Source: Oryzias latipes (lineage: Eukaryota; Chordata; Actinopteri; Beloniformes; Adrianichthyidae). Taken from it: a DNA stretch of 64,000 nucleotides. Position numbers and translations under genes: made by a program. How positions within the stretch are numbered: position 1 is the first letter of the stretch; the number at the start of each line of letters is the position of its first letter. Below the pieces are notes generated by a model. It was not told the DNA's origin, did no database searches, and saw nothing but the letters and a program-made list of their open reading frames with translations. Of this stretch, positions 761 to 59,657 are shown in pieces. Where the stretch lies: contig NC_019871.2 in NCBI RefSeq assembly GCF_002234675.1, positions 24,771,466 to 24,835,465 on the forward strand. Direction: 5' to 3'.

Positions 761-2571
761 ACCATCGGTGAGGACAGACTTCCCTCGACCCATCGGTGAG
801 ACCATGGAGAAGGACTATCGGTTGGCCTCGAAGAAATTCTGGCAAACCGTCCGGCGCCTCAGGAGGGGAAAGCAGTTCTCCACAGGCACAGTTTTAAGTG
901 CAGGTGGGGGGCTGTTGACCTCGACTGGGGACATTGTCGGGCGGTGGAAGGAATACTTTGAGGATTTCCTCAATCCCACTGACACGCCTTCTTTTGAAGA
1001 AGCAGAGAATGAGGACTTTGGGGTGAGCCTGTCTATTACCCGGGCTGAAGTCACCAAGGTAGTCAACGAGCTCCTCGGTGGCAGGGCCCCGGGAGTGGAT
1101 GAGGTCTGCCCTGAGTACCTCAAGTCTCTGGATGCTGTGGGAGTGTCTTGGCTGACACGTCTCTGCAGCATCGCGTGGCAGTCGGGAACTGTACCACTGG
1201 ACTGGCAGACAGGGGTGGTGGTTCCCCTCTTTAAGAAGGGGGACCGGAGGGTGTTCCAACTACAGGGGAATTACACTCCTCAGCCTCCCTGGGAAAGTCT
1301 ATGCCAGGGTACTGGAGAGGAGAGTCCGTCCGATAGTCGAACATCGGATTCAGGAACAACAGTGCGGTTTCCGTCCTGGTCGTGGAACAGTGGACCAGCT
1401 CTACACCCTATCTAGGGTGCTGGAGGGATTGTGGGAGTTCGCCCATCCAGTCCATATGTGTTTTGTGGATTTGGTGAAGGCATTCGACCGCGTCCCCTGT
1501 GGTATCCTGTGGGGGGTGCTCTGGGAGTGTGGGGTCCGGGGAGCCTTACTAAGGGCTGTCCGGTCTCTGTATGACCAGAGTAGGAGCTTGGTTCGCATAG
1601 CCGGCAGTAAGTCAGACCTGTACCCGGTCCACGTTGGACTCCGGCAGGGCTGCCCTTTATCACCGGTTCTGTTCATAGATTTTATGGACAGAATTTCTAG
1701 GCGCAGCCAGGGGCCGGAGGGGATCTGGTTTGGGGACCACAGGATTTCCTCTCTGCTTTTTGCAGATGATGTTGTCCTGTTGGCTTTATCAAGCCAGGAC
1801 CTCCAGCGTGCATTGGGGCGGTTTGCGGCCGAGTGTGAAGCGGCTGGGATGAGGGTCAGCACCGCTAAATCCGAGGCCATGGTTCTTGACCGGAGAAAGG
1901 TAGCTTGCCATCTCTCGGCAGGTGGAGTATCCTTACCCCAGGTGGAGGAGTTTAAATATCTGGGGGTCTTGTTCACGAGTGAGGGAAGACCGGAGCGTGA
2001 GATTGACAGGTGGATTGGAGCGGCGTCCGTAGGTATGCGGTCGCTGTATCGGTCCGTTGTGGTGAAGAGAGAGCTGAGCCGAAAAGCAAAGCTCTCAATT
2101 TACCGGTCGATCTTCGTTCCAATACTCACCTATGGTCACGAGCTATGGGTCATGACTGAAAGAACGAGGTCTAAAATACAAGCGGCTGAAATGAGCTTCC
2201 TCCGTAGGGTGGCGGGGCGCTCCCTTAGAGATAGGGTGAGAAGCTCGGCCACCCGCGGAGAGCTCGGAGTAGAACCGCTTCTCCTCCACATCGAAAGGAG
2301 CCAGTTGAGGTGGCTCGGGCATCTAGTCTGGATGCCTCCTGGACGCCTCCCTGGAGAGGTGTTCCGGGCATGTCCCACTGGGCGGAGGCCCCGGGGAAGA
2401 CCCAGGACACGCCGGAGAGACTACGTCTCTCGGCTGGCCTGGGAACGCCTCGGGGTTCCCCCAAAGGAGCTGGAGGAAGTGGCTGGGTCGAGGGAAGTCT
2501 GGGCATCTCTGCTTAGACTGCTGCCCCCGCGACCCGGTCCCGGATAAGATGGATGGATGGATGGATGGATG
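761..2571 (+). mobile_element. 5'-truncated Rex3 non-LTR retrotransposon (RTE clade)
   Basis: The stretch encodes a reverse transcriptase in two frames: about 768-1250, then about 1390-2547. A small frame-breaking change lies near 1250-1260. The second frame holds the palm motif FADDVVLLA near 1757-1785 and the LRQGCPLSP motif near 1640-1665. The 3' end is a short GATG/GGAT tandem tail, the hallmark of Rex3. The sites used for Rex3 PCR typing, as I recall them, match at about 1203-1222 and 1645-1665. The insertion is bounded by a 9-bp direct repeat GAATCATAA at 752-760 and 2572-2580, so it looks like a single, fairly recent 5'-truncated insertion. The apurinic endonuclease domain is missing and the frame is broken, so it is not autonomous. 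Confidence 0.9.
1390..2547 (+). pseudogene. Rex3 reverse transcriptase, C-terminal portion
   Basis: This is an open frame of 385 residues holding the reverse transcriptase palm and thumb and the C-terminal region of a Rex3 ORF2. DLVKAFDRVP supplies the first catalytic Asp and FADDVV the second and third. The C-terminal part, rich in Arg and Pro, is typical of fish RTE elements. The upstream part of the same protein (768-1250) is in another frame, so the protein is broken. This is a retroelement relic and not a host gene. Confidence 0.85.
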
Positions 2572-4875: not shown

Positions 4876-5374
4876 TTTGGCTTTCTGTCACGCAAGAATC
4901 AAAACACTTCATCCAGCCCCCACGTGTTTTGTCACAATGGTGGTCGAAGATGTCAACACAGTTTAAATAAGGAAGACAGATGCTGACTACTAACTTTTAC
5001 AGCCTGATCCTACAAGTGACCTGTCATCTGGGAACGCTGATAGTTCACCTTTAATCCCTCTGAATCCTTCAGTAGTTAAGATGCTCTAAAAGTTTGAGAA
5101 TATTTTCTTACCTCAGATACAATTGACTGCAATACTTGACTGCATAGCCCCCATTGTGTTTACAAAATCTGCAAGAGCCCACATACTGTTGAGAGGGTTC
5201 TTTGTCGGTACAGTGTGTCTCCTTGAGCTTAAGTGAATCCAGACTATCATCGGTTACTGCCATGTGCCACCCTGACTATAAATGTCTCTACTATAAGTGT
5301 AAAGACATTGTTGGTCAGCTTTGGTGTTCCCCATAACCATGTAAAGCCACACAGAAATGCAAACCACAACGTAC

Positions 5375-5649
5375 CTGTAGAGCATCCCAGTCTTATGAGC
5401 GACGGTCTCGTCTTTACCCAGCCCAAACATTTTCAGGTACCAGTTGGTCTCCATCTCTCTGATCAAAGCTGCTTTATGCTGCTGCAGCGCCGATTTCTTT
5501 CCAGACGAGGAGCCGCGTTTGCCATCCAAAGAGTTGCGGGCTTTGGTGCCACTGAGGGAGGCCACCGATTGTTTGCGATGCACGTGAGATGGCTGGTGAA
5601 TGCCGGCTGGACCCCCGACGCCCCCCCCACTGCTCCGGGCAGCTAGCAT
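5375..5649 (-). CDS. kcnab1: Kv channel beta-1 subunit, Kvbeta1.3-type alternative first exon (partial gene)
   Basis: This is a single coding exon of 91 residues plus two bases. It starts at ATG 5649 and ends at a GTACGT donor (AG|GT at 5375/5374). The N-terminus MLAAR matches the inactivation-ball start of mammalian Kvbeta1.3. Arg5 is reported to bind PIP2 there, and the peptide plugs the Kv1 channel pore. Near the end, AALIREMETNWYLKM parallels the human ALLREVEMNWYLKL segment. The exon ends in KTGMLYR, the junction after which all Kvbeta1 isoforms continue into the aldo-keto reductase core. Length agrees with the human isoform-specific region. The core exons are absent and should lie left of position 1. 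The middle is Ser/Gly-rich and less conserved. No TATA box or other promoter was recognised. Confidence 0.85.
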
Positions 5650-8600
5650 GGCTCAAGACGCGGTTCACTCCAATCAAGCAGAAGATTGGGATGAAGAAGA
5701 ACCTCAAGGCGCAGTTCCTTCAATTCTGAGGTTTTGTCCACCAGAATAATGTCTGCTGACCACTTGTTTTTCCACAAGTTAATCAGTCAAAACAACTCAT
5801 TCCAACCTTTAGTTTTCTTGTAATGTCTTCTGGATTTTGTTTGTCTTTTATCTTCCTGTCTCTGTCTGTGTCTGTCTGTCTGTGCAGTGTGCTCTCTGCT
5901 CTCTTATAGCCTCATCAAGCCTGAAACTGGATCCCTGTTTCCTTGTCTCGTCACAGCATGCTGTGACCTAAAAGTAGGAAACCAAACATGCCATGGTGTC
6001 AACAATGCGTACGCACACACACACACACACACACTGCATACGTGATGGCTGCACACCACATGCCAAAAAGCAAACAAAGAAATGTTTCCTGTAGATATGC
6101 TCTGTGGAGGCACTGTTTGTAGTTTGTATCAGTGACAACGTTTTATTTTCTGTTTAAGCCTGATGAGAGGCAAAAATCATGTAAGGCCTTCAGCTGAAGC
6201 ACATGTTAAAGTCCATCAACTGTATGTTTAACATGAAAGCTACTCCAGGCTTCCTGCTCTGTCGAAATAAACAGAATAGTGACAACTATGATGCTCTTTA
6301 GCTTAACATGTAGCTTTAAAAACTCAAGTAGCCTGGTTTACCCAAGTACTTTCCTTGAAGGCCCAAAGCGTTTTACAGTCACAGTCACATTCACACACTG
6401 GTGGTGGCTCCGCCGCCAAACACTGGCGCCAGCCTTCCACCAGAGGCAAGGTGGGTTTCTGTGTTTCGCCCAGGAACACTTCGATACATGGGTGGGCTAG
6501 GTGGGAATGGAACTTGCGATCTTTCGATCAGGGGTCGACCGCCCTACCGGTTTGTAAAAACAAGTAAAAACCAGATCATTGATGTGTTTTTTAATTGATT
6601 TGGATTATTTTAAGCAATTTCAGCAATAAAAACAAAGGAAGAATGCAAAAAAAAATGTTTAATGCATAAATGTATTGAATCTTTTTCAAACGTTAATTCA
6701 TGACTCAATTAGAAATTCAAAAAAGTAAAGGTAAAGGATGCAATTTTTTGACAATAATTGCCCCTAATCTTAAAAAGATATTTGCATTTATACCTACAGT
6801 ACACACTAGGCCCAGAATGTCTATTAGATATCGAACATACATCTACTGTAGATGTCTACAGGACATCTCTGACAACTATTAGATATCTACCAAAAGTGTT
6901 CTGTAAGATATCTGCCTCTGATGTGCATTTGCTTACCCCCAGGTTGGGCTCGTTTCTTTAGATTTTAAAACACCCTTTTTATCATGCTAAAGATGAATTG
7001 AAGTTGTGCAGCTAACTTTACGGGTGTGCTAGAGACATCCTCACTTTGTGTGCCTTTGTTTCAACTAAGATCTCACTGTCAAATGTAGAGTGCCTTGTGT
7101 TTACTGGCATCCAACAATCAAGTCTTCCATTTTCAGATAAAGAACACATCAGGCATCTGACATTTAGCCCATGGCGTTCACACTGGACAAGCAGGGAGAG
7201 CCTTCCTCTGCTTCTTTTGTTTCTGTGTAATAGCTCATGTCCGCCACTTCAGTTGGGAGAGGATGAGTGCGAAATGTTGAAGCTGTGATAATCTGGTGAA
7301 TCTTGCACCAGGCTTTTCTCTTTCACAGCTCTATTCCGATACTTGAAAGACTTGGTGTCATAGAATTTCTAGCAGGACACAAACTGCAGTTCTTAAATTC
7401 TCCATCTTAATTAATTTGCAAACAGTTGGCTCTTCTGTGAATCAAAGGGGACGCCATCCATATGTCACTACCAAATCTGTTCGACCTGGTTTAACCTTCA
7501 ATGCATGTTCAATCACATGGACTTTTCAGTGGCCGCTTGAACACGAGTTGCTGAGGGCGGTGTGAACGTAGCTTTTATGTTAGCATTGGGTCAGCAGTTA
7601 TTTGTTAACATGAACACTTTTGGGGGGCTGTGGTGTAGAGTTAAAGTGGTTGACCTCTGATCTGAAGGTCGCAGGTTATGCACACTCCAAAAATAATTCT
7701 GTGGATTTACTTACAAGCCTTGCGTTGGGTGGTCGCATGCAACCACATTGAGTAATTGTTGTAAAGCATGCCCATATAAAATGATCTACGGAATCCCACG
7801 AGGATAAATATTCTAGATTCTACTCAAGAGTGTCGCGTAATCCCTTGCTGAAATGGTTGAGTAATGCAAAATATTAAATGCATATATAAATATTTACGTA
7901 AACATTTTTAAACTGTGAAAAATCAAAAGAGTTTGATGAAAATAACAAATTGCAGTTTAGTAAAAAAAATACATATTTCATTATTTTGAGTCCTCCATTT
8001 ACTATTACTTGTGTGAAATAAACAACATGTTTTTAGGAAACAGACTAATCAAAGCAAACTCTATTTGACATGATTCATTAAATTTAACTAAACAAATTGT
8101 AACATTTCAAGCTCAGTTTTCTAAATGATTGATAAATGGTGAGTCCTATTGGTTTTACTTGGATTTCATGGCTGGATAACATTTTTGTGTGAATCATCTG
8201 GAGTAAAAAAACTAAAGTATAAATAAATTGTAAATTATATTTAAGTTTTCTCTCTTTTGTCCCTTTTTATGATGACTTTACTAAGCAAAAAAAAGTGTTG
8301 CACTGTAAATATGGTGAGTTGAATAGAACAAGTCAGAGCAGTCATCCATTAAACATCCCCCGTGTCCCATCCTGTGTACGGAGAACCCTTCAGGTCTCTC
8401 ATTAGACCCTTGGAGATGTGCGACCTGAGAGGTCAGGTGAACAGATCAGTCATGGAGTGTCAGCCCTGAATTATTCACCCTGGTAAGGAGAGCTTGAAAG
8501 TACACTTGACATCGTTTCTGAGAGTTCCAAGGTAGAAATTGTGACGACTGCCCTTTGTGACTGACGGATAAACGGAAAAAGATGTTCTGCTTTCGGCGTC

Positions 8601-13760: not shown

Positions 13761-16700
13761 TTAATCTTGATCATCGACAGCAGTGGATGCATTGATCTCT
13801 GTAGCAGTTGTGGCGAGTGAGGCTGAGGTCCCAGTGGTTGTACCATCTCGCGGTTTGGGCCGGGGCTTCATCATCTCCTCCTTGTTGCGTTCAGGTTTGA
13901 CCAAAAGGATGTAACACTTGGGAAGGAAGATGCAGAACAGCAACCCAAAGCTGGAGGCCAGAATGGCAAAAATCTGGACGGCGACCATGAACTTGCCCCG
14001 CGTGCTGAGGTAAGCCGGGACAAAGGAGATCCACACGATGAAGAACACCAGCATCCCGAAGGTCACGCACTTTGCCTCACTGGAAGATGTGGACATCAAG
14101 ACATATTCAGCTGATCCAAAGTTAAATTCTTTAAATCTCTAGTTTCTGTTGACGATTTGAGGTGATACAGACCTGAAGTGGTCCTCGAGTTTGCGAGCTA
14201 TGAAGGCAAAGACAAAAGCCAGCAGGGCCAGCACAATGTCATATGCAAAGACGCAACAAATGAAGACAATGGAACCTTCGTCACACTCAAGAATAATCTT
14301 GATGTTCTGAGCTGAGGTGTTCTTGACGGGGTGTGGAGGGAGGATGATGAGCCACACCGTGCATGCTATGACCTAAACCAAAACGGAGAAAAGTTGTTTC
14401 TAAGAAACACATTTTAGAGTTTAAAGTTGGTTGAAATAAAATACTGAAGCTGAAATCTGCTCCCAGTTTCTTTATTTTTGTTGCTTTTAGATTACCTGTA
14501 CTAATGTTGCCACCATTGCTATTGTCCTCTGGTGAGCACAGGTGAGAATGTCCTTTTCTGGGGTGGGAAAGGTGCTGGCCTCATTGTTGATTGTGCTGGT
14601 TGCGATCACATCAGGACCGCCTCCGTTAGCCACATTTTCAGCTGCCGCTTTAGCAGCTTTGGCGGCTGCTTTGGCTTTGAGCCGAGCTGCTTTCAGGGCT
14701 TGAGCTCTGAGCATCAGAACTGCTGCTTTACCTGAAGCAAACAGGGAGAGGGTCGATCTGGACATGTTCAATTTAGGGGACTGCATCATCCATGACTCTG
14801 AATGTTTAAAAACAAAAGAAATGCGGCTCCTTCTGGTGACCCACCCATGATGGAGGAAAGGCAGAGAGCAAAACCCAAAGCCAAAGCCACTTGACTGGTC
14901 ATGCAGCTCCAGTGCTGAGGCTCTCCGAGGAAAACAATGGAGCAAAGGAAGGTCACCACCAAGGAGAAGAGCAACGAGAAGCTCAACAAAGGATCATTGG
15001 CTTTGACCAGAGGAGTGTCAATGTGCAGAATTAAAACAACCTGGAAAAATGTGTAGAGGAAGGCATTTTAATTTCAATCCCAAACAAAAAAATCGGATTG
15101 TGTGTGTGTGTGTGGGTGTGTTTGTGTGTGTGTGTGCTTTTCACCCCAACAGCTATGGTAAGTAAAGCTCCTAACGCAGCGATGACTATGAGAGTGATTC
15201 CCAGGGGTTCTCCAAAAGCCAAGAACTCTATGATTTTTGGCACACAGGTGTCATGGGCATCATTGGACCAGAAATCGCCGCTGCACAGGATGCATTCTCG
15301 AGCGTCTGTTTAAAAGAGGACAACAGGGAGCAAGGGAGTACAGTTTTTACCATCATTACAGGGTGTTTGTTGGCCACAAAGTCTTGTACGTGTGCACTTT
15401 TAGGGGATTGAATATGAAAAGTAAGGGAAAACAAAACCTCAAAAACGAATATAATTAACACATTTGAACAAGTGGTGCTGTTTTGCAAACTTTTAAACTG
15501 ATCTTATATGTGAAGTATAAACAGTAACATAACTAATACAGCCTTTCCCAACAGTTGCTGGGTAGGCTTCAGCAGCGCCATGACACTGAAAGGGTTTAGT
15601 AGGTGCTGAGGATGGATGGATGGATGGATGGATGGATGGATGGATGGATGGATGGATGGATGGATGGATGGATGGATGGATGGATGGATGGATGGATGGA
15701 TGGATGGATGGATGGATGGATGGATGGATGACGGATGGATTGATGGATGGATGGATGGATGGATGGATGGATGGATGGATGGATGGATGGATGGATGGAT
15801 GACTGATGGATGACACAATAAATTTGAAAAACAATATCTTTCATCTGTGATTTGAAAAAAAATCAAGATACATAATGGTTTTACATGCCTTGAAATTGTA
15901 TTTTTTAAATTATATAAAATATGAAACTATATTTATGAAAATAAAGATTAAATTGAGTGATTGTTATCAATATAATCTTCAATTAACATATGGGGGTGGG
16001 GGTTAGTCTTATTAAATAATCTTACAGGTGTAGGGAGGAGTCTCGCAGCCTTCCAAATCATACTTTAACTTTTTCTAAATCAGTTTTTTTTTTATTATTG
16101 TAGGAATTTTTGTTGTTACTGTAAATATTGCATTACCTGTACTTGTATTACTTTGCAGCCACAAAACAATTAAATAATCAAACACGTTTGGACTTGATCT
16201 ACTATGACTTAAAAGGATTCATTATTTTCTTAACATGATGAAACATAAAGGAGTTTAACTATTTTCCCAGCTTATGTTGTAAATGTAATTTATCATGAAC
16301 AGCAGTATTTTTTATCACATTGTGTGACAGTAAAGTAAAAAAGAAAAAAACTTTCCACTTTCAGCTTATTTGAGACTTTTCTGCAAATGTAAAAATGGTG
16401 CACTGACTGGTGGTGTTGCTGATTTCTCCATCAGCACACGGGATGCAGTCAAAGCAGCAGACTGGCTCCCCCTGCCGGATCCCCTTTCTTGTGCCGGGCT
16501 GACAGTTCTCGCTGCACACTGACCGCGGAGGCTTGTGCACAGAAAAGAAAGACACTACTGAGTAACCAATAAGTCACAGAGCAGTGCGCGTCCTTTGCTG
16601 CAGTTCATCCAGCATGTAACTGACCGTTGATTCATCGTTGTTCCAAACAATGGAGTCGTTCCTTATGTGCAGTCTGTCCTCTGGAGCTGCAGATCCATTG

Positions 16701-19700
16701 TAGTGCCCCACAGTGACATAGGATATCTCCCCGTCACCTCCAAGCTGCCAGTTAATGATGTCATAGTAGCCCTCTATGTCACCGTCAACAAAGTAGATCT
16801 CCTCCTCTGTGTTTGGCACTTTGAAGTGCACATTCTTCATGTAGTACATCAGCTGCAAACACAAATGCTGGGTTTCAAGCACAAATGACTGCACAAGCAT
16901 GTGCAAGCCATCTGCGGTATAAATGTCTGCGCTCACCTGCCACGGCTCAAAGTTGGTGATGTCTGCACAGCTTTTCCCCACAAAGGGCCCATTTCCTGGT
17001 TCACAGTGCTCAAGATGGTGCAGAGCATGGGCCACGGCATACACAGCTTTGTAAACACTGAGGGGAAACAGTTCACCGTATCACAGAACAAAGCTGTACG
17101 GATTTAAAGCAACTTAAAAAGTAGATTATTTAATAGAGGATTATGTTGGACAGCAGCTGCAGTAACTGGAGAAGCACCAAATAAATTAGCAGCATGAGTG
17201 ATTTAATGAAATGCAAGAACTGACCTGTAAGTGATTCTTAACTGGGAGACATCAGAGTAGGTGTTGCTGAGCTGAGCCACAGACTCAGTCCCAGTACACA
17301 ACCCATCAGGTACCCCTGCTCTGGACAGAGTGCGGTTCACCTCTCGGGCCATTCTCAGAGCTTTGCCGTAGTCCAACGTGCAATTAAACAACTGCAAGAT
17401 CACAATCAGGGCTTTAACATGACATCAGGGTTATTTTTTAAGAAGCCATTATTTCGTGCAATAAAGATTTCCCATAGAGACAATCCTCAATTTAGCAAAA
17501 AAAAGGGCCTCAGGCTGATGATACACTGTATGAAAACACACCGTCTCCCAGAATTCCTCAGTGAGTGGGTCAGCAAATGGATCCAGATCCAAAAGATGGC
17601 GCTGAAGTCCAGGAATCTCAGCCCTCTTCACCCCAAAACCCAGGGTTCCAGCTAAGACTGGGCTCACCTGCATGAACACACGCAAATGGAAACTTTAATG
17701 CACTATTTCATAAATTTGACGAGTCGGTCAGTTTCTGCTCAGACCCATGACTGTGTATAAGAACTGGACTGGGTGACCCCTCCTCCCTCACGTTTTAAAT
17801 AGGAAGTACCTGCAGGCTTCAATTAGCTAAAATCCCAAAGACTTTTATTGAGAAATAAACAACAACAACAAACTCAGTCATTATAATTGTCAGAATTACC
17901 ATTCTTGCTCCAATACCTTTTTAAAGGGATCTTGTTAATTGCAATTTTTTTCATGATATTTCTTTTCTTTATTGCAAGTCATTCTTAAACTGGCCAATTA
18001 GATGCCTCAATAAAAGTAGGTGTTGACCCCCATATAGAACGTTTGAACTGTTTGATGGACAGATTCTCCTGGGGTTGTTGTCTCCCAAGAAACTCACTCC
18101 TGATTGGACCAATCACTGCTTAATGACGATGTCTGGCTCCAACATGGTGGCAAAAATATGGTGACTGAATTAAACTTGATTCTTTTGGAACCATTTTCTG
18201 AAGGCGACGTCACACTCACTCGATCCAGATCTCACATACAGTCAACGGCTGAGGCAGAAGACAATGACTCACCCCGGGCTGGTTGATGAGGGCGGAGGTG
18301 ATCCAGGCCTCGCTGGCAATCCAGGTGCGGTTGGTCACATTGTGACGGAGCAGCTCAGAGATGAGCGGACTGAGGTCAACGTCTGACGAGAAGACCACAA
18401 TGATTTTGGCTGTGGACTCTACTATAGTTTGAACAACCCTCTGGATGGCTGCAGGGGAACTCACCTAAAGTTCAGACACGGGTTTAAAAAAAAAATGCCT
18501 GATAGCATCCGATTGGCTGAGACGTGAAACATCCGAGGTTTTACCTTTGGCAGGGTCTCAGAGAAAGAGATGCACACACCAGCTTCTTCCACCTGATCCT
18601 TGAAATCTTTGATGCCATACTTGCCATAATCATCCTCTGCAGCTATGATGCCCACCCATGTCCAGCCAAAGTGGAGCACCATCTGGGCCATTGCTGTGGA
18701 TTGGTGCTGGTCATTGGGAATGGTCCTCAGGAAGGTAGGAAACTGGAATTTGTTGTTCAAAGCGGAGCATGTTGAACAATAACTGACCTGAGGAAAAGAT
18801 GCAGGAAATTCATCATTTTCCCTGCGGTTTGTCCACCTTTGTTGTCATCAGGGTCATACCTGAGGGAAATGGTAAAGGCCAAGTATTCTGGCAGTGGCAA
18901 TGGACAGGTCAGAGCCCCCAGCACCCACGAGGGCAGCAAGAGGAGGCCCGTTACCGCACCGGTAGTTGGGTACTGCTTCGTCTTGGCCCGTCAGGTAAGT
19001 CAGAGTCCCTTCCACCGCCTTGGAGATGGTGAAGCAGGAGTCGTAGATGACGTAACCCAGGTCAGTCTTGGGCAGCAGGTCGTTCCTTTTGTTAATTTCA
19101 TTGATAGCAAACAGCATGGTTTGGGTCCAGCGGAAAGTGCGGAAGTTGAATCTGAAGGATTCCGCATCAAGAAGATTCAGGAAGCAGTTATTATTAGTTT
19201 ATTCAATGCACAATAAGTGCTTATTACTGCATTAACTTCCATTGATAGAGGGACCTCTTAAAGGAAATAGGTACCAAGAAAAATAACAGATGCATTTTTA
19301 GCACAATTTCAGCTTAATATTTCAGTTTCAATATTTGGTACTTCAAAGATGTGTTGATTAGTGTTGTACATTAACATGAATTCGATGTTTGAATGACTGT
19401 AGCTAATTGGTCCCAGAGTTGCTGCCTTGAAGTCCTGAGGTTATGGGGTTCAACATTTATCATCTTTAACATCAAGTTCAGATCCTAAGTTACAGGAATG
19501 AATTAATCTAAAAGAGCAGTTGAAAGAGTGTAAAAGGCATGAACCAGTCCAGGAAAACTGACTCAACTCACCCTTCACATCCTGAGGACACAGGTACCCT
19601 AGACGTGTTCCCATCATTAGAGGCAATGCGCTTGTGAACTGGAAACATGCCCCCAATAACAACCTTCTTCTTCTCCACATCTTTGTAGCTGTTCAGGTTG

Positions 19701-19795
19701 AACTTGGCCTTCAGCTTGCAGGTGGATTCTGCTGAAACGGATCCGTGAAGACAAAAAAGGGCACAGAATCCGAGCGCGAAGCTAATGATATCCAT
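13761..19795 (-). CDS. Class C GPCR, V2R/OlfC (CaSR-like) receptor, 14 exons
   Basis: Exons: 19795-19572, 19151-18860, 18787-18545, 18464-18273, 17667-17542, 17391-17225, 17057-16937, 16852-16625, 16531-16408, 15305-15145, 15040-14845, 14731-14496, 14372-14173 and 14079-13761. All junctions are GT-AG and in phase, giving 942 residues. Order: signal peptide (about 1-22), Venus-flytrap ligand domain, nine-cysteine domain (exon 9, exactly 124 bp as in CaSR/V2R genes, and exon 10), 7TM helices, short Thr-rich tail. Near-CaSR motifs are RTIPND, AAEDDYG and [15 protein letters not shown]. Family members sense amino acids, calcium or odorants at the cell surface and signal through G proteins; V2Rs act in olfactory neurons. 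Oddities: 8 extra introns against the usual six-exon plan, and a second intracellular loop enlarged by an Ala/Lys-rich segment. An in-frame upstream ATG lies at 19852; 19795 was chosen because it begins a signal peptide. The V2R versus CaSR-paralogue assignment is inferred. Confidence 0.88.
14496..14731 (-). CDS. Receptor exon 12: end of TM3, enlarged intracellular loop 2, start of TM4
   Basis: This exon of the class C receptor encodes residues about 692-770. It begins [10 protein letters not shown], the end of TM3, and ends IAMVATLVQ, within TM4. Between them lie an Ala/Lys-rich run (about residues 701-722, with repeats of [11 protein letters not shown] type), a Gly-rich turn and a Ser/Thr-rich segment. 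Ordinary V2R and CaSR proteins have about 20 residues here. No stop or frame break is present, and both flanking splice sites are canonical (acceptor TTCAG before 14731, donor GTAATC after 14496). Confidence 0.8.
15096..15137. repeat. GT microsatellite in receptor intron 10
   Basis: An interrupted GT dinucleotide run lies immediately downstream of the exon 10 donor (15145/15144). It is inside the intron. Short open frames running through it on either strand are artefacts of the repeat. Confidence 0.8.
15545..15813 (+). repeat. SINE 3' remnant with expanded GGAT microsatellite
   Basis: About 65 bases (15545-15610) match the 3' end of the tRNA-headed repeat at 20715-21120: GGGTAGGCTTCAGCAGCGCC against GGATAGGCTCCGGCAGCCCC. 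They are followed by about 200 bases of GGAT repeats with a few interruptions. The simplest reading is a 5'-truncated element whose tetranucleotide tail expanded. It lies inside receptor intron 9 (15306-16407). Open frames of repeated MDGW or HPSI residues here are not proteins. Confidence 0.75.
17940..18130 (+). repeat. Dispersed repeat shared with 60205-60300
   Basis: The run CTTTATTGCAAGT...TAAACTG-CCAAT-AGATG-CTCAATAAAA is present in both places with scattered differences. This copy lies in receptor intron 4 (17668-18272). The family is not identified. Confidence 0.5.
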
Positions 19796-30300: not shown

Positions 30301-33300
30301 TTCAGCTGCACCTTCGGCTGTATTTTGGAAAAGTCCCGTCCCTTTACTGTCTCCACCAATCATTCCTGGGGGGCTTAATCACATGTCATCGGTCTGACCA
30401 ATCAGAAGTGCTTAAAGTCTTCACTTCCTTGTCCCGATTTAGCTTGTAAAGTCGCTCAGTTCTAACAAAAATAGCAGTTAAAGCTCGTCTTTAGCGGTGT
30501 AGCTTTGCACAGAATCCGGTATCAGACCGTGGAACAAGTGAACAAAACAATGAAGCTCCGAAAAGCGATCTTCGGCCGTTTTATGCACTACATCTCCCAT
30601 GATGCATTGGGTTGTGAGAGTGACAACGCACAAGGAGATCTGTTGTTAAACGTCTTGAAACCAACGAACACACATCAAACTGTTTTTAAATCTTCTAACT
30701 TAACTTTCATTGCATCTTTTAGAAAAAAAACAGCTGCAGTTTCCAGCTTTTTCTGTAACAATTATCTCATAAATGCATGTGAGATTGTGGAGGGGCTGTA
30801 GATCAATACAGACTATGAGTTTCTCCTTTTTTTTTAATTTTTGGATGCTGGTGTGCCACGGGATTTTTTTTAAGGTTAAAGTGTGCCGTGGCTCAGAAAA
30901 GGTTGAAAAACACTGATCTACACAAACCTTCAGTTCTGAGCAGATCTGTGTTTTTGATAACACATTTAAACCTATAATACTGGACTAGGTTTTCAATGAC
31001 ACTTTGAATGTTGAGTGTATAAACTTGTGCAAATGTTCATGTCTGTCTGAGGAAAGCTTAAACAGTGAGGGGTTTAAAATCTACAACCCTAGTACAAAGA
31101 TTTCACCTATTTTAGAACGTAACTTCCACGATAAATGGGACCTTTGTATAGCACATTCAGTTTTTTCTTAATGATCTGCAGTGAGGACAGACTACCCCAG
31201 GTAATAGAATACTTTCTTCTCTGTATAACTAACTAACTAACGACTAATAGAAAAGAAAAAAATAATTCTCTTTTGCAAGCTCATGTCAAGCAGGATAAGC
31301 ACGACTCAATTTTAACGATCATGTCTTATGCTTTGAGGTAATCACCTCAAACGGTCATCTGTACAATGTTCAGAGAGCAACGTTTGTGCTTTTTTCACCC
31401 AATAAAAACAAGGTCACGTCACCATTTATTTGATAATCAATCCACATGCATCCCCCCCTCCCCACCTCACTGACCTTTTTGACACTTGCAGAAAAGTCTG
31501 CGACGATTTTTAGGATATTGTTTGTTTCAGCAAAATCTTTGCAGATGTAAGGCTCCTCTGCACAAATCACTCTGATGGACAAACCAGGACCTAAGCGGCA
31601 GGACAACAGGGAGACAACGATCATTTTTAACAGACACACCAAAAAAAAGCTTTGAAGAAAACAGGAAAGCAAGGAGTTCAAAAGCAACTGTTGTGAATTA
31701 TATTAACGCGTTTAATGTATAATTTTAAGTGACATGGAAGGTGTTTTTGTTTTTACCAGGAAATGGATGTCGTGAGACGATCTCCTCTGGAAGGCCCAAC
31801 TCCCTCCCGAGCGCTCTGACCTCATCTTTATGAAAGTCTTTCAGCGGTTCGATTACTCTTCCCTGGACGGTGAATAACAGAGCACAATCAACATTTCTGC
31901 TGGAAGGAGGTGATTAAGTTGTGTGTTCGTAGCTTCCACAGTTGAGCATTCATGCAAAAGCATTTGACTAAACAAAGGAAAGGAATAAGTGACCACAAAC
32001 CAGAACGTTTGAGGCAGAACGTTTGAGGTTTCTTTTGCATTTTTAAGGAGTTTTGTGCGCTCCTGCAAAAACGTTCTACCTTCTAATGTATCTGTTTAAT
32101 CATTTTCTGAAATCTATCTGAGGAACAGCGGGTCTGTGCGATCAAATACCTCATCTCTGAGTTTGCGGATGAGCTCGGTGTCGTTGTGATGCGTTTTGAT
32201 GACCTCTGCTTTGCCGCTTGCAAGATGAGAGGCACTCTCAATGAGATCAGGCCTCAAGGTACCCTGAGCCAAGAAAACGTCCTCTGGGTTCAGATTCATC
32301 TCTCCGATTACTTCGTTAGCCACCTGCCAAGCAAGACGATTCAAAACGTGAGATTCAACAGTGGAGTGGGCGCTCGGGCACAAACGGAAACCTTTGAAAG
32401 CCACAACGCACTTTGACAAACGTGTCTCCGATAATTTTTCTTTTCTCCTCGGGGTTGGTGGTCATGTTTAAGGTCTTGCTGATGCGTTTTCGAGGTGTTC
32501 TGTCCTCTTCTGAGATCGGGAGGGTTGTCGTTCCATTGTAGAATGTGTGCGCCGCATTTATCACTAACGGAAAATATAAAATGCATGTGTAAATATGACA
32601 TTACAGAATACAATCACAGAACTTTCGAACAGATCGACATGTTTGGCTTAACAAGGACTTTCACAAAGAACGGTTTTCCAGAAGCGACTTCGCTGCTCAC
32701 CTTTGAGTTGGATGCCCAGCTTGGTAAGAGCTTCTTCCACACTTTGACTTTCCTTCTTCCTCATGAAGCCGTTGTCGATGTGAACTGCTATGACCTGTTC
32801 CCGGGGCAGAGCTTTGTTGAGGAGAGCCGTGCAAACGGTGGAGTCCACTCCGCCACTTAGCAGCACCTGAAAAATCAGAAACAGCATCTTAGCAAAGCCA
32901 TTTACACCACTATTGTTCATTATACTACCTATCTTGGTAGAATCTTGTTTTATCTATTAGCAGGCTTAAAAAAAAAACAGAACATTATTAATGGAAGTAA
33001 ATTAAGCTGAACAAACATATTTTATTTTCCTTTGAGTGTAAACTAGGGATGCTATAATTCTCTTTTTAAGAGCGAAAAGCATGATTCACCATTAAACCGA
33101 ATTGTGGGGAAAGTTAATCATTACATCCCTACTGCATCCCACAATGCTTCTGTTGAAACGTTCAAACACGTGTTGTGCCCAATTAAAAAGTGATTTATTG
33201 TTTAATTGAGTTAAACCTGGTTTAGTTTGAGACAACTGAAAGGTTTTTCTTCTTTGTTACTTACCTATTAGCAAAAAAAAAAAGGAGAAAAGAAATATTC

Positions 33301-36300
33301 TGAAATTTTTTATTTTTGCTGTTTAGTAATACACAAATCCTACTGAATCCAAAAGAGAACGTGAAAACTGAGGATTAAATCCAATGGTGGGAAAGTAACA
33401 CCCTTTTTTTCAACTTTTCCTGATTCAGATTTGAATAAATAAATACCCAGAAATGCAATTTTGAGTTTTATTTTGAATAATTTATGTCCTCCATCAAAAT
33501 GCCACAAGAACAGATTAAAAACTCCCAGAACATAATTTTCATTGGAATGGCTCTTTAACGTAAACTATTTAGCTAGTCCGACATAAACAAATTGCGTGGC
33601 GAATTTTAGGCTCCAACACAATAAGCACTGCATTCTGACACTCCTTAAAAATGCCCCTGCTGCTGCAGAAACGGACTAAATCTGTATCTGCAGCAAACAG
33701 TAAAAACCCTGTGATTTGAGCCCGTTTTATTCGCACGCTCATTTATCATCCTAACATTCCCCCTGGGATGAAGCCGAGTTTGAAAACACTCAGGGAATAG
33801 ACTATTCACAGACAGACCACAGTATAATTTAGGGGTTCAGTGAATTCCAGGGAGCTCCGTGCTGCTGCTCTTTCTCTCTGTGGAAGTGTCGGCCACACCT
33901 TTCACTCAAATGACGCTACATCAAACATAAAAGCCATCCTCTCAAAGAATTAACAGACTTTGCTCACCAGAACTTTAGATTTGTCCACTTTTTGTCTGAT
34001 CTCACTGATGCAGGACTGTTCACGGTTCAGAACTGTGAAATTATTTGTACATTCCGCAATTTCAAACAGGAAGTTGCGTAACATTTCCATGCCGCTCTCC
34101 GTTAAGTCGACCTCGGGGTGAAACTGTGTCCCATAAAGCTTCTTCTGTTCGTTAGCGATCCCTGAATGACAGAAGAAAACACAGAATTGATTTATTAGAA
34201 AGCAAATGTCATAAAAACCACTAATACCATGAAGTTTAGGTTAAGGTGACTGACGACACAGAAAAAAAAGCTAATCCTTAAACAAGGAGAACATTTTATT
34301 GCTCACCAATTTAAATAATTGATCTTTGAGTTCCTATCATTTTAGACATTTCCAAAAACACAATCCTAGACTTGTGGAAAGCCTTCCCAGAGGAGTTAAA
34401 ACTATTACAGCAGCAAATGGAAGCTCATATAAAAAAATAATAAACTCTTTAAAAAAAATAATAAACTCTTTGGAACATGAAAAGAAGATTCCTTAAATTC
34501 ATAAACATATGAAGGCCATGTGAGTGAATACTTTTGGACATATTAAGTGTTAAACATGGAAACCTTTAATCGGCAAAGATGGTAACATACAGTTAGGCAC
34601 ATTTTCAGTTTATGTGAAACCAGGTCACAGCTAATCTCATCTGTTCCTCACCAGCAATGATGTTTCCTGACTGTGCTACCACCTTAAAGCCCTCGGCCAC
34701 CTTATCCACACTGTCTCCATGGGTGAGCAGCACCAGTTCCTCTTTCTGAAGACCTCTGATAAGAAAAGAAAACAGACATCAGTGAAGATATGCAGTGCTA
34801 CTAATATGGCATTTGAGTTTCAGTTCGTGTTCATTTTTCAGTAAGTTAACTGAAATAAAACTAAACAACATTAAAATATATATATATTTTAATTCTGCAG
34901 ATCAGTTTAACACGTGACTGCTTAATTATTTTAACTAACTACTGCAAATAAAGGAGTTTTGACTTGATCATGAGGAGCAACAATGCAAGAGTTTGTAATA
35001 TTAATTAACATTTTCTAAGTAAATGTTTTTTTTTACGCCTGACCAGAATCCCTGGATTCATTTGTCAAACATAATTGGACTTGTAAAACGTGTAAAATTG
35101 TCATTTAAGCTTCCAGGAAGATGTTTGGAAATAAGTGGCAGTTTAAGGGACTTAAATACATCATGATGAATTAGATAAGGACAAACAACCACAAACATTA
35201 TTGGCTTGGGTTTTGATTGCTGCCATGTAAAAGCTAGAAAATATAAATAAATAAATTTAACAAGGGTCTTAAAAAAATGAGGCTTTTTTCAAAAGGTGGA
35301 GAATTTAGCACAATACATTCTCTAAATGTTTCAAGTGGAGGAAATGACAAAAATTAAGCATGAAATGGTAAATAGACCTAAAGCTTTTTGACATAAAAGT
35401 GTAAAAACAGTTATCTCTGATCCTTTTGTCTTTTAATGGGTGTTTATTGCCATAAAAAAGCAAAACACATGCATATATACAATAGAAAAAAACATTTCAG
35501 TCCACTCATAAAACCACAATACCTGAACAAGGAGCATGTGTTGTCCAACCCAACACTGAACACTCCATCTTCTCTCACGCTCTTTTTGTGCACAGTGCCG
35601 CCAAATACTTTATTCATCATCTATAACACAAAACTCACAGTTAATACGCAGACACTGAATTTAAAAAATCATCACATCAATTCTAGAGATGGAGCTAACT
35701 GGGCGACATTAGCATAATACGATTTTTTTTATCCTGCACAAGTCAAAGTACAAACACTTCTAAACAAAAACAAAAAAACACAGAAACCACTGCATGCATT
35801 TCAGAAAATACCTGCATCCCATAGCAAATCCCAAGGACCGGCTTCCCCATGGTGAAAATTACGGGGTCAAACCAAGGAGCATCTTCTGCATACACAGAAG
35901 CTGGACCTCCTGAAATAATTATTGCTCTAAGGAGGTTAAAAAAAAAAGGGAAAGAAAAATATATAGTCAGATGGCACAAAAAAAAATTGAAATTCTACAT
36001 ATAAAAGAAAGCTTCATAAAAAGGAAGAAGAGTGTTTCACCTGTAACCTTGTTCTCTGATGACAAAGGCGGGGGTCTCTAAGGGCAGGATCTCCGAGTGT
36101 ACACACAGCTCTCGCACACGTCTGTCTATCACCTTCCCATACTGGGCCCCCGCATCCAGGATCGCCACTGCCCCCTCCAAGGATCCATTCTGCTGTGAGG
36201 AACTGATCTCCAGCTGTACAGAGACAGAGTGAAAGAAAAAATTCACATGAAGCAGTTTCAACTTTAAACTCACGAGTATTATTTTTACGGGGAAAACCAC

Positions 36301-42295: not shown

Positions 42296-43024
42296 GTAAT
42301 GCATGAACTTGAACCAATCTATTTTCCTCCAAAAATTTAAATACGGTATCTTAAAATATATGTTAATCGTCTAAAAAGAAATGTTTATTTGATTTTAAGT
42401 TTTTTAAGCAAGTATGTATAATGACTCTGTTTTTATGTAATTTTTTTATTACTTTCTTCACCAAACTTCCGGTAGGCTTTTTTCCCCCCTCATTCATTTT
42501 CTTTTTCTTTTTTTCCAGCCGTTTTGTTAGATGTAGGTGAAGTTTATTTGCTTTATCGTGCCTGCTGACAAACCTTGGTGGATCACACCGCACTCTGTGA
42601 ACTGTAACTCTGATCCTATTTGTTGATTTATTTATTTGTTTTTACTTTATAACCGGAAGTCGTGATACCACTCACTGCTCATGTATTTGCTTATTATTGC
42701 TTCAACGATATTATTGTGAAAACATAATTATTCATGGAGGTGATAGATTTACAAGTTTGAATGTATTTAACTGGGGGACTTATGTAAAATGTTTTATTTT
42801 AATTACTAGTCACAAATATCCAGAATGTTTAATCAAATGTAACATTTAAATGAAACATTTATTTTTATCATTTTATTAATTTGATCCAGAAACTTGTGAA
42901 CTTGAGTTGATTTAAGGATTCAGCAGTGACACCTAACCCATAATGTGACATCTTCATCTGACTGTGTGCTGCTTCTCTGTAGATTTGCTGGGGGCACAGC
43001 GGGTTTGACGCCCACACCTCCACC

Positions 43025-46000
43025 ATGGAGCCCTTGGATTTAAACAGGCGCAAGAATGGACGGCAGAGGAAGCTGGCAGATCACCCGCCTCTAGAAAACA
43101 TGACGGACATGAGAGGGGTGATTAGCACCCCTGAGCCAGAGGTGGAGGAGGAGACGGAGGGTCTCATCAGTGGTGCGGACTATGAGGATAGGAGGCATCA
43201 CATGGCCCCAACCGGGATCCGTGGCGAGCTGGGGAATGTGCTCCTCCTTCTCTTCCTCTATGTGCTACAGGGAATTCCTCTGGGACTGGCTGGCAGCATC
43301 CCCTTGATCTTGCAGAGTAAAAATGTCAGCTACAGAGACCAAGCTTTCTTCAGTTTTGTCTTCTGGCCATTTAGCCTGAAGCTTTTCTGGGCACCGCTTG
43401 TGGATGCTCTGTACTTCAGCAGGTTTGGTAGAAGGTAGGAAACCCGTCCAAGCAAGAAAGCCGACTGCTTGCCTGATTGTATCTGTGGCTATGTCTGAAT
43501 TTGCTCACTACTTCCTAACCCAGCGATTTGCAACATTTAGCACTAAAAGAGCAATTGGGGCCAGTTTCTTAGAGATCAAACCCAGTGAGAAACACAAAGT
43601 CCTGCCTTACTTTTAAGGGGGGGGGTTATGTTTTTCTGGCCAGTAGGTCATTCATTTATAAAAATGTAGCTTTTAAATATTTACAATAATTGAATTATGG
43701 CAGTTTTCTTGTTTCTGTATAACAACATTAACTTTTACGTTTGACTGCAGCACACACACAATCCTTTCAAAATAAAATACATCATGTGTTAAATGGTATC
43801 CTCCTGCAGCAGCAGATTTACTTGAACTAAAAAAGCCAAGTATGGCATATTATATCTTTATGACTTTGATGCAATTCTATAAATGCAATTCAATACTTTA
43901 AGAACATTGCATCTGAACAGGAACTAGACACTGTTGTGCAGCAGAAGATCAGAAAATGGGATTTAAGCTCACCGGTGTTCCAATCACAGAAGATGACGTG
44001 TTAAAAATCTAAAAATAAAGAACAAAACTTATTCAACTAAAATAATCTACCAAAACTACAGACCTATTGTTTTTTTAAATTGTTTGCACTGTTCTTGAAA
44101 GCGCCGCGGAGGCATGAAAGAGCTGCATGTCACTGGGGCTTCAGACTCCTGCCCTAACCCCTAAATGACCGTCTTAGTGCCCTGGGTTTAATGCAATTTG
44201 GACACATGCTCACTACTTTTTTGTGTAAAACATGACATCAACCCTTTGCCAAAGTAAAAAAACTAATAAATATGAACTTTTTATGAATCTGATGTGTTCT
44301 AATGATGAAAACCTGGATGATATAGAAAAACAGAAATGCACATGGACCTTTTCAAATGAAAAATTGTGCATTTAGGTCTATTTTTGCTAATCTAGTGAGA
44401 AGTAATGCACTCTGATTTTTTTGTAGAGTCATCTTGGAATTTTCTAGGCCACTGGATTTTCAACAAAAAAATAAAAAAAGGTCCAACTATACATAGTGCC
44501 TACCCATGGAGTAGTGACTGAATATCTCCGACTATAATTTGTTTATGCATTTGTATTTTATTGGTTTACAAGTTTCTGTTTTCTGTTTCCACAGAAAGTC
44601 GTGGCTGGTGCCTACGCAGTACCTGCTGGGTTTCTTCATGCTTTATCTTTCTTTTACGGTTAATTCACTGCTCCAGAGTGAGAAAGGACCAAACGTGGTT
44701 GCTCTCACTGGAGTCTTCTTCATGCTTGCCTTCTTAGCAGCCACACAGGTAGTAATGATGAACGAGCGTATGCAGAACTCTATTCAGAGTGTAGTCCAGC
44801 TCTAAAATCCTTGGGGTTCCTCCTCTGTGTTTAAGGATATAGCCGTGGATGGCTGGGCTCTCACCATGTTATCCAGAGAAAACGTGGGCTATGCATCGAC
44901 GTGCAACTCTGTCGGCCAAACAGCCGGGTATTTTCTCGGGAATGTCCTCTTTCTGGCGTTGGAGTCAGCGGATTTTTGCAACAAATACCTCAGAGTAGAA
45001 CCCAAAGAGACGGGCATCGTCACCTTGTCAGGTATTTTTTTACACGCCCAAACATGAACGGTTATTTTTGTTTGATTATTTTTTACTATGAATTACATGC
45101 TTTCTCCCCCTTGCTGTCATTGTTCTGCTGCAGATTTCTTGTTTTTTTGGGGAGTGGTGTTCATGGTTTCCACCACCTTGGTAGCCATCTTCAAGAGGGA
45201 AAACGGACACGGCAAAGGGAAGAGGAGAGTCCCAGAAGAGACGCAGGGGGTCATGGAGACGTACAAGTTATTGTTCACCATTGTGAAGATGCCCACAGTC
45301 TTCACCTTTTGCATGCTGCTTCTCACAGCTAAGGTATCCATAGATGTTTAGATCGACACTTGAATGCAGTTATGACATAGAGGAAGAAAACGTTTTCCTC
45401 ATTTATTTTTTTGCTGTTTTTCTGTGTTTAGATGGGTTTTTCTGCAGCGGATGCAGTCACGGGTCTGAAGCTGGTGGAGGAAGGAGTCCCCAAGGAGCAG
45501 CTGGCACTGCTGGCTGTGCCCATGGTGCCTTTGCAGATCCTCCTACCCTTGATCATCAGCAAATACACAGCAGGGCCCCGTCCTTTAGACATTTTCTACA
45601 AAGCATATCCTTTTAGGTCAGAGCTTCTGCGGGGACAGAAAACCTCTGCAGGGGGGGCCGTGCAGAAAAAGCTAACGCTCTTTTGTTCTGGCTTGCAGGT
45701 TACTCATCGGGCTGGAGTATGCTTTGCTGGTGTGGTGGACCCCGAGTGTTAAACAGGAAGGAGGATTCCCGGTTTATTACTACGCTGTTGTGCTCCTGAG
45801 CTATGCGGTGCATCAGGTTTGGTGTTTTTATCATTTGAGGTTCACAGAAATTCTAAATGTTTAAAGAACCACTCCGATGTAAATGGTGTATTTTGTGTTT
45901 TTACATTTTCTTGTGGCATTTTGTGTGGCGTAACTCCTCCCTGCTTCACTTTGTTCCGATGCTTCCACCTGCAGACAAATAGATCCATGAACGTCTTTGT

Positions 46001-47667
46001 TTTCCTGGTCTGAGTGGGAATCTGGATCTAAAGTGTACGGCTGGATAGCTCTAATGTTGCTCACCGTTTTTGTTGCACCTCTAATGTTAGCTTGGGGTTG
46101 TGGGGGGCTGTAGGCTAGCGGGGAGAGTGTAAACAAAGGCATGATGGGAAATGAGCCCTCATTTCCCACCCACAACTCGGAGGGGAATTCCTAAGGAACT
46201 TGTGCTGCTCTGCAGAAACTACATCCTTGAAAACGACACAGGCCTTTTGATTGTGGCTAAAACCGCATCATCGTAGTTAAAAGACCACTGGGAGCGCTTT
46301 TAAAAAAGATCGAAAGATGTTTCAGAGTTTGTCTTAAGGGGTTGTTGGTGTGGAGAGACCCCACCCCCTTTGGCAGTCACCCAAAACTGAGCCCTGTGTT
46401 TACTCAAGGTATGCCACAATTCTAGGTTTAAAACCGTTGAACTGAATTGTGGGAAAATTGAATAATTGCATCCCTACTGCAAAACCAGCATGTCTGTTTT
46501 AAATTTAAGAAGGATTTACTATTTTATGACATTGAACTAGGCTTAGTATAAGCAACTAAAATGTTTTTCTTTGTTTTTATTTCCTAATCAGCAAATTAAA
46601 CAAAAAAGACTTTTCTGATTTTTTTTATTTTTATTTTTATTTTGTTGTACCTAATTAAAACAAAACCTGAAAATCGAGGTTTGTATTCACTTGTCGAGGT
46701 GAGTTGTTGCATTCCTACTTTCCACTCTCTCCTGCTAGCTTACAGCCCCCCACAACCCCAGCTTAACATTAGAGGTGCAACAAAAACGGTGAGCAGGATT
46801 GGAGCTGTCCAGACGTACAGTTTAGATCCAGATTCCAGCTCAGACCAGGAAAACAAAGACGTTCATGGATCCATTTGTCTGCAAGTGGAAGCATCAGAAA
46901 GAAGCAGACCCGGGAGCTTGTATTACATTTCCTGTCTCAGCTCATTTTCAAACATAATTTTTCCTCTGCTCCTGATTTACATAAAGAAAATCCTTGGAAA
47001 TGCAATTTCTCCATTATAAAAAAAATGAGAAAAACATGTTAAAAACATCAAAAACACAATTTTCGTTGAAGTGAGTCTAAGGTGTTGGCCTTAGACTCAC
47101 AGATGAGCACAGATCAATGGTTTTCAGCTCATCTGTTTCCCCCTGAAGGCTCCACAGCAGCCATCAATCTCTCTGAGACCATTTCTCTGGTGTTTTCCCT
47201 TTCAGGTGGTGTTATACAGCATGTATGTAGCCTGCATGGCTTTCCACGCCAAAGTGAGCGACCCCCTGATAGGTGGGACCTACATGACTCTTCTGAACAC
47301 GGTCACCAACCTAGGAGGAAACTGGCCCTCCACCATGGCGCTGTGGCTGGTGGATCCGTTGACCTCGAAGGAGTGCCGCGGAGCCGCCGCCCAGAGCTGC
47401 GGCTCTGCAGCCGAAGCTGAAGTGAGTGGGCGGAGCAAAGCAGCACTGCATCTACTGATGTCGGAAAGTCACCTGGTTTATCTCTGTTCCCCCCTCCAGC
47501 TGTGTGTGAAGGAAGGGGGCGCTTGTGTAACAACGCTAGACGGCTACTACGTGGAGTCCCTGGTGTGCGTGGTGATCGGGTTAACCTGGTGGCTCTGGTT
47601 AGGGAAGAAGATGAAGCAGCTGCAGGAGCGGAGCCCCGCGGCGTGGAGGTGCCGTGTGAATCAGTGA
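43025..47667 (+). CDS. slc33a1: Acetyl-CoA transporter 1 (ER membrane), 8 coding exons
   Basis: Imports cytosolic acetyl-CoA into the endoplasmic reticulum and Golgi lumen for acetylation of gangliosides and proteins. Exons: 43025-43434, 44595-44748, 44836-45031, 45134-45333, 45432-45616, 45699-45816, 47206-47421 and 47500-47667. The total is 1647 bases, or 548 residues (human 549), with all phases matching. A polar N-terminal tail of about 70 residues precedes a multi-span major-facilitator core. Near-identical family segments include LYVLQGIPLGLAGSIPLIL, QDIAVDGWALTMLSRENVGY, GFSAADAVTGLKLVEEGVPK and DPLIGGTYMTLLNTV. The start has a CACCATGG context. Only the N-terminal tail is poorly conserved. 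It is divergent from gmps, as in mammals, and convergent with rps6kb1. The last intron is only 78 bases and open in frame. A paralogue is unlikely given full-length identity to the family. Confidence 0.97.
45955..46131 (-). repeat. Left arm of a large inverted repeat in slc33a1 intron 6
   Basis: Read on the minus strand, this aligns with 46722-46905 on the plus strand at roughly 85-90 percent by eye. Both start near CTCTC(C)-GCTAGC-TACAGCCCCCC and end near GGAAGCATC. Both remain open in the same frame and share residues SPPQPQ-NIRGATKTVS and DQENKDVHGSICLQVEASE. It is a dispersed element of unknown class, possibly of coding origin. Confidence 0.7.
46425..46700 (+). repeat. Dispersed repeat related to 33040-33440
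   Basis: It shares AATTGTGGGAAAATTGAAT-ATTGCATCCCTACTGCA and an AT-rich tail with the gmps intron copy. Here it sits between the two arms of the inverted repeat in slc33a1 intron 6. Confidence 0.5.
46722..46905 (+). repeat. Right arm of the large inverted repeat in slc33a1 intron 6
   Basis: This is the plus-strand partner of 45955-46131. It is open through the whole arm, encoding the same peptide with conservative changes (for example TYSLDPDS against PYTLDPDS). The arms are about 590 bases apart, so the intron transcript could fold into a long double-stranded stem. Confidence 0.7.

Positions 47668-50255: not shown

Positions 50256-59657
<9,402 letters not shown>

Follow-up and report, generated by a model that had tools for sequence, protein, structure and literature searches.

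A 14-exon medaka V2R gene, most likely an OlfCc1/Vmn2r1 orthologue, and what looks like intron gain across its receptor family

The full-length OlfC genes of zebrafish are described, in a passage of PMC1764893, as six-exon genes with strictly conserved phases. What, then, is to be made of a gene of this kind whose coding region is divided into 14 exons, and does it stand alone in its genome? The gene that raises these questions lies in a stretch of 64,000 nucleotides (C13:24771466-24835465, hereafter the window), and the genome searched comprises 734 Mb in 25 contigs.

Structure of the gene and of its product

With the reading frames as anchors, a search for splice sites resolves positions 19795-13761 of the minus strand into 14 coding exons and 13 GT-AG introns, with a coding sequence of 2829 nt including the stop and a product of 942 aa. 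The exons measure 224, 292, 243, 192, 126, 167, 121, 228, 124, 161, 196, 236, 200 and 319 bp (the last including the stop), and the phases of introns 1-13 are 2, 0, 0, 0, 0, 2, 0, 0, 1, 0, 1, 0 and 2. A preliminary description of the window had given 14 coding exons of these sizes, GT-AG borders throughout and an intact frame of 942 codons, and it was right to the base. The parts of the gene are as follows, "private" marking sites found in no other aligned receptor.

13761..19795, minus strand: gene, most likely a family-C V2R (OlfCc1/Vmn2r1-like), 14 coding exons, 942 codons; from the gene model, Pfam, a CaSR-guided alignment and a tree
19572..19795, minus strand: exon 1, with a hydrophobic start that by eye is a signal peptide; ends in phase 2 and is followed by ancestral intron 1
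18860..19151, minus strand: exon 2, 292 bp, ancestral
16937..18787, minus strand: ancestral exon 3 (ligand-domain core), now exons 3-7 (18787-18545, 18464-18273, 17667-17542, 17391-17225, 17057-16937)
18465..18544, minus strand: extra intron 3, 80 bp, phase 0 after residue 253, private
17668..18272, minus strand: extra intron 4, 605 bp, phase 0 after residue 317, private; mostly dispersed repeat
17736..18248, minus strand: dispersed repeat inside intron 4, 67-77% identical to long matches elsewhere
17392..17541, minus strand: extra intron 5, 150 bp, phase 0 after residue 359, private
17058..17224, minus strand: extra intron 6, 167 bp, phase 2, splitting residue 415, private
16625..16852, minus strand: exon 8, 228 bp, ancestral
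16408..16531, minus strand: exon 9, 124 bp, ancestral (cysteine-rich domain)
13761..15305, minus strand: ancestral exon 6 (7TM and C-tail), now exons 10-14 (15305-15145, 15040-14845, 14731-14496, 14372-14173, 14079-13761)
15041..15144, minus strand: extra intron 10, 104 bp, phase 0 after residue 626, private; contains a CA-type simple repeat
14732..14844, minus strand: extra intron 11, 113 bp, phase 1, splitting residue 692, private
about 14571..14708, minus strand: Ala/Lys-rich insert of exon 12, lengthening intracellular loop 2 by about 40 residues relative to the other aligned receptors
14373..14495, minus strand: extra intron 12, 123 bp, phase 0 after residue 770, CAG|GT; site common to cluster genes g01, g13, g15 and g26
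14080..14172, minus strand: extra intron 13, 93 bp, phase 2, splitting residue 837, private

Intron 9, one of the ancestral ones, is 1102 bp long and has a long GGAT-type simple repeat at 15615-15805.

How far can a model of this complexity be trusted? A spliced alignment was guided by the CaSR protein of the same genome (locus L023, identified as CaSR by matching CaSR chains far above anything else), a query independent of the gene model, and it recovered 12 of the 13 introns at identical bases. The exception is the region of intron 11 and exon 12, where the alignment places two different introns, which excise the loop-2 insert; there is also an in-frame alternative acceptor near 14557 whose use would remove the insert together with part of TM3. 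These two points, and the derivation of the model from sequence alone, are what could be said for the view that some of the "introns" are coding or that the gene is a decaying pseudogene. Against it, retaining any of the eight extra introns would shift the frame (lengths not divisible by 3) or bring in in-frame stops, while the 942 codons are open, the domains and the amino-acid-binding signature are intact, and CaSR aligns across most of the exon junctions; we regard such an artefact as very improbable and infer that the gene is spliced in vivo as modelled. Ancestral intron 7, if retained, would cause neither a frameshift nor an in-frame stop.

The loop-2 stretch is 83 residues long in the window gene, whereas the 25 other rows that span it (all but g24) have 41-44, and the Ala/Lys-rich insert is absent from all 25 of these same-genome receptor rows. 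In class C receptors, loop 2 takes part in coupling to G proteins, and for that reason the insert may matter.

As to identity, the spliced protein matches ANF_receptor (2.7e-77), NCD3G (1.5e-20) and 7tm_3 (2.3e-66) in Pfam, and the flytrap, nine-cysteine and 7TM domains of class C GPCRs are all present. The closest solved structures by sequence are CaSR chains of full length (around 1e-227, the best at 3.9e-228), in an alignment with short loop gaps that spans residues 41-699 and 762-908 and leaves both ends and the loop-2 insert outside. The protein, a probable receptor for the smell of amino acids, has the signature for amino-acid binding complete, with eight of eight residues (S, S/T, R, D, Q, Y, G, D/E, a list taken from part of PMC1764893). 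A tree of 26 receptor rows, all from this one genome (zebrafish and mouse sequences were not included), places the window gene as sister to 22 V2Rs of a cluster on the same contig with support of 99/96, and CaSR outside the V2R group with 100/99; several rows, the window gene among them, are on long branches, for which the program warns that placement is less sure. The V2R/CaSR-like identity proposed at the outset is borne out. CaSR itself is ruled out: the window gene falls outside it in the tree, and a separate CaSR gene lies on C14. CaSR has a long C-terminal tail, and the window protein stops 34 residues past the CaSR-aligned region.

A position as sister to the main cluster is described for family-C V2Rs in the available part of PMC1601972, and the same excerpt names gmps and slc33a1 as neighbours of the family-C V2R in zebrafish, frog, mouse and human. 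Both have counterparts in the window:

31412..36213, minus strand: gmps exons (syntenic neighbour); piece 32120-32413 matches GMP synthase 2vxo, 2.2e-27
42986..47658, plus strand: slc33a1 exons (syntenic neighbour); Pfam Acatn in all 3 pieces tried, one of which matches 9m0s, 2.1e-34

The other gmps pieces were read by eye; 32681-32854 is a weak NAD_synthase match in Pfam, and for 31412-31621 and 36058-36213 the Pfam search gave no match. On account of the tree position and of this synteny, the window gene is most likely a family-C V2R and the orthologue of zebrafish OlfCc1 and mouse Vmn2r1. According to parts of PMC5966872, a large set of zebrafish olfactory neurons expresses OlfCc1, which has been proposed as a co-receptor of other OlfCs (PMC5966872, PMC1764893, each in part). 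By analogy, the window gene may be the broadly expressed receptor that, in microvillous olfactory neurons, pairs with V2Rs (OlfCs) of sparse expression. The protein is mostly ordinary for the family, with an amino-acid-binding flytrap, a cysteine-rich linker and a 7TM domain, and it is the structure of the gene that is not.

Elsewhere in the window, protein-kinase exons occupy 53127-58527 on the minus strand (Pfam Pkinase 2.8e-08 for one piece, the others by eye) and tubulin-family exons 61626-62659 on the plus strand (Pfam Tubulin 5.4e-14 for one piece, the others by eye). The open frame at 5314-5652, minus strand, resembles what we take to be the N-terminus, or first exon, of human kcnab1; it found no match in a sequence search of solved structures.

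Ancestral and extra introns in the V2R family

Five introns of the window gene are the ordinary ones of these receptors. They fall after residues 74, 172, 455, 531 and 572, with phases 2, 0, 0, 0 and 1, and share column and phase in 18, 21, 26, 25 and 26, respectively, of 27 aligned rows; nearly all the V2R and CaSR rows without one of them start or end at or before its site. The exons of 292, 228 and 124 bp are unchanged, as had been supposed, and the ordinary introns that flank them agree in residue and phase with those of CaSR and of the V2Rs that cover them. Comparison with CaSR, which in this genome has the ordinary introns only, and with the cluster V2Rs also confirms the eight introns beyond the ordinary five, four in the ligand-domain exon and four in the 7TM exon, each of which is thereby split into five. 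The family-C/V2R pattern of six coding exons with phases 2, 0, 0, 0, 1 is hence present in the window gene as five introns among thirteen; the eight extra ones are the variation itself and have no bearing on descent.

Is the departure peculiar to this gene? The V2R cluster at 12.465-12.689 Mb of C13, the same contig, yields 30 matches of the 7TM family, grouped into 26 genes. Sequences were obtained for 25 of them (the gene at 12671421 was left out) and 23 were counted, g12 and g17 being too fragmentary. Between one and six extra introns are found in 15 of the 23, and ordinary introns only in the other eight:

Extra introns per cluster gene: g01 5, g02 2, g03 3, g04 3, g05 2, g06 2, g07 1, g08-g11 2 each
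Extra introns per cluster gene, continued: g13 6, g14 1, g15 2, g26 4; none in g16 and g18-g24

These counts are lower bounds, because several models are incomplete: g18 is without most of exon 3 and everything upstream, g24 without the 7TM exon, and g02, g13, g14, g15 and g26 without 5' exons. The gene at 12671421 and g17 look ordinary, with single uninterrupted matches only. By locus, extra introns in the cluster occur in L028, L029, L031-L036 and L044-L046, with possible ones in the normally unsplit exons 2 (g01, doubtful) and 4 (g13). Two sites are doubtful, namely residue 139 in g01, on which two models disagree, and the 1468-bp gap at residue 795 in g13, which is perhaps not an intron; near residues 352-382, in a loop, some cluster models are uncertain and differ with the query.

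The extra introns total 47 and occupy 25 distinct sites, in phase 0 at 17, phase 1 at three and phase 2 at five. The window gene holds eight of the 47, the most of any gene, and seven of its eight sites (residues 253, 317, 359, 415, 626, 692 and 837) appear in no other aligned row. The eighth, after residue 770 in TM4 and in phase 0, is shared with four cluster V2Rs (g01, g13, g15 and g26). Five distant class-C loci (L019, L020, L025, L026 and L030), aligned at low identity, have introns elsewhere and none at the extra sites of the window gene. The idea of a burst of gain in one gene thus stands as regards the eight introns and their likeliest origin, a gain in the fish lineage, and fails as regards the one gene, since 15 of 23 cluster V2Rs are also affected and the residue-770 site is common to four of them. 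The window gene looks like the extreme case of a family-wide intron gain.

That the extra introns are gains, made after the split from zebrafish, is the most likely reading, and it rests on the published statement about zebrafish in part of PMC1764893. For the private sites it is also the simplest, because zebrafish OlfCs have six exons and CaSR in this genome is ordinary. Eight spliceosomal introns would have been added, four in each of two large ancestral exons, with the five ancestral introns kept, in a fish group where intron gain is already known; the timing, and gain rather than loss, we infer from these comparisons. The opposite view, in which the extra introns are ancestral and were lost in zebrafish, tetrapods, CaSR and the ordinary cluster V2Rs, draws on the residue-770 site, which is found in the same phase on both sides of the deepest split of the V2R tree and could be ancient and many times lost. 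It has to contend with the other seven sites, which are in no other V2R or CaSR row, with the distant class-C loci, which have no introns at these positions, and with the many parallel losses required, above all in zebrafish (PMC1764893, in part), and we consider it distinctly unlikely. The residue-770 site alone takes three changes on the tree, whose forks at that point are unresolved, and its distribution calls for two or more gains at one position or for a single old gain followed by many losses. The site encodes Gln-Val or Gln-Ala, and AG|G is present in eight of the 19 rows without the intron.

Taken together, it is quite probable, in our judgement, that the window gene is the fish OlfCc1/Vmn2r1 orthologue with eight introns added, most likely after the zebrafish split, and that many cluster V2Rs have also gained introns, mostly at other sites. 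A bolder reading, to which we would give a little less than an even chance, is that V2R intron gain has been heavy and family-wide (25 extra sites in one genome) with the co-receptor as its extreme, that introns entered the CAG|GT at residue 770 separately in the co-receptor and, one or more times, in the cluster, and that the loop-2 insert is a separate change which may alter G-protein coupling.

Possible sources of the extra introns

Vertebrates are described as seldom gaining introns, and how such introns arise is still debated. At 23 of the 25 sites (two were omitted for having too few rows), rows without the intron show AG|G in 6.9% of cases vs 1.4% at random sites, a value reached in 0 of 2000 draws, and AG|GT in 2.7% vs 0.34%, reached in 14 of 2000. 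The AG|G enrichment is carried by a few sites, as 21 of the 33 cases come from residues 201, 292 and 770, and at the seven private sites of the window gene AG|G was seen in no relative. The extra introns are short, with a median of 123 bp vs 110 bp for the ordinary ones.

The preliminary description had suggested looking for a source by comparing the introns with one another and with repeats, and apart from the repeat in intron 4 no source turned up. A dispersed repeat makes up about 85% of intron 4, and nearly all the matches listed fall inside it (40 of 5022 candidate places were scored). Were the introns, then, supplied by transposable elements, be they introner-like or born from an element, as proposed for slc26a2 of notothenioids in part of PMC12357937? 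Intron 4 invites the idea, yet about 92 bp of it lie outside the repeat, which is the size of a normal short intron, so the repeat may have entered an intron that already existed, which is no less likely than that the element gave rise to the intron. In genome searches that skipped very common words, introns 3, 5 and 6 match only themselves, introns 11-13 have no dispersed match among the matches listed, and the sole match type listed for intron 10 is a simple repeat. Comparing the introns with one another gave only short matches, and so did a comparison restricted to the five residue-770 introns (lowest E 0.03, within a very small set), although old elements could have decayed beyond recognition. 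An origin from transposable elements seems, on this evidence, unlikely.

More specific candidates fared no better. An introner would be an end-to-end copy of a dispersed element, and only intron 4 contains one, not end to end, decayed copies being possible. For the element in intron 4, a search for inverted-repeat ends matching at 12 of 14 bases listed none, and a repeat search gave seven short pairs, none linking both ends at high identity; by eye the two ends are weakly alike, to which we attach no claim. Tandem duplication of an exon piece, which would make an intron begin like the following exon or end like the preceding one, gave no signal in 45 of the 47 extra introns (two of more than 700 bp were dropped), with 0.299 vs a null of 0.312 at the 5' end and 0.317 vs 0.328 at the 3' end, and old events could have eroded. 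Separately, relatives of exon 11 were sought in viral contigs, where 150 pattern matches gave none that was confirmed, and the window carries a LINE-like reverse transcriptase open frame at 1240-2544, plus strand (Pfam RVT_1, 2.9e-33), with a further open frame just upstream (777-1334).

Insertion during the repair of DNA breaks, or sources too old to recognise, would fit better than recent transposon-born introns, because the introns are short, have no recognisable source and sit at sites which as a set (the private sites of the window gene apart) are enriched in AG|G; the mechanism is unproven.

Comparison with known intron gains

Intron gain in this fish group is already established, for serpins among others (PMC2746811, in part), and the window gene and the cluster V2Rs would be a further case. 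For fish V2R or OlfC genes, no report of it was found in the titles and abstracts of the open-licence literature, among the matches listed and with subscription papers outside its scope. What is unusual is the number of extra introns in one gene and how many paralogues are affected. A single multigene family in a single genome, whose members have 0-8 extra introns besides five invariable ancestral ones, makes it possible to test directly where introns insert and whether sites are used again; if the family-wide gain and the independent hits at residue 770 are true, the V2Rs would be a natural experiment on where new introns land. There is also a practical side to this, in that searches for fish V2Rs which expect a single 7TM exon would see such genes as fragments.

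With zebrafish OlfC​c1 and mouse Vmn2r1 (V2R2), the window gene shares its place in the family, as sister to the main cluster, and its neighbours gmps and slc33a1, and it differs in having 14 coding exons, where six are reported for zebrafish OlfC genes, and perhaps in its long loop-2 insert. In slc26a1, five introns were gained in the ancestor of Eurypterygii, some at sites common to paralogues (PMC12357937, in part), which is alike in the addition of several introns to one gene within the same broad fish group and in some sharing of sites; it is a different family, and those gains were dated with 81 vertebrates, vs one genome here. Among GPCRs, gains after the zebrafish split, several of them at proto-splice sites, are described for medaka, stickleback and pufferfishes in CHRM4a (excerpt of PMC6298421) and in MC2R, MC5R, P2Y and CHRM3 (excerpt of PMC3151243); these genes are usually without coding introns, and CHRM4a gained six and MC2R three, vs eight in the window gene. 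A related six-exon receptor, TAS1R3B of ray-finned fishes, has gained a single intron in each of exons 3 and 6 (PMC10781636, in part); these two gains are dated to early ray-finned ancestors, and the window gene has eight.
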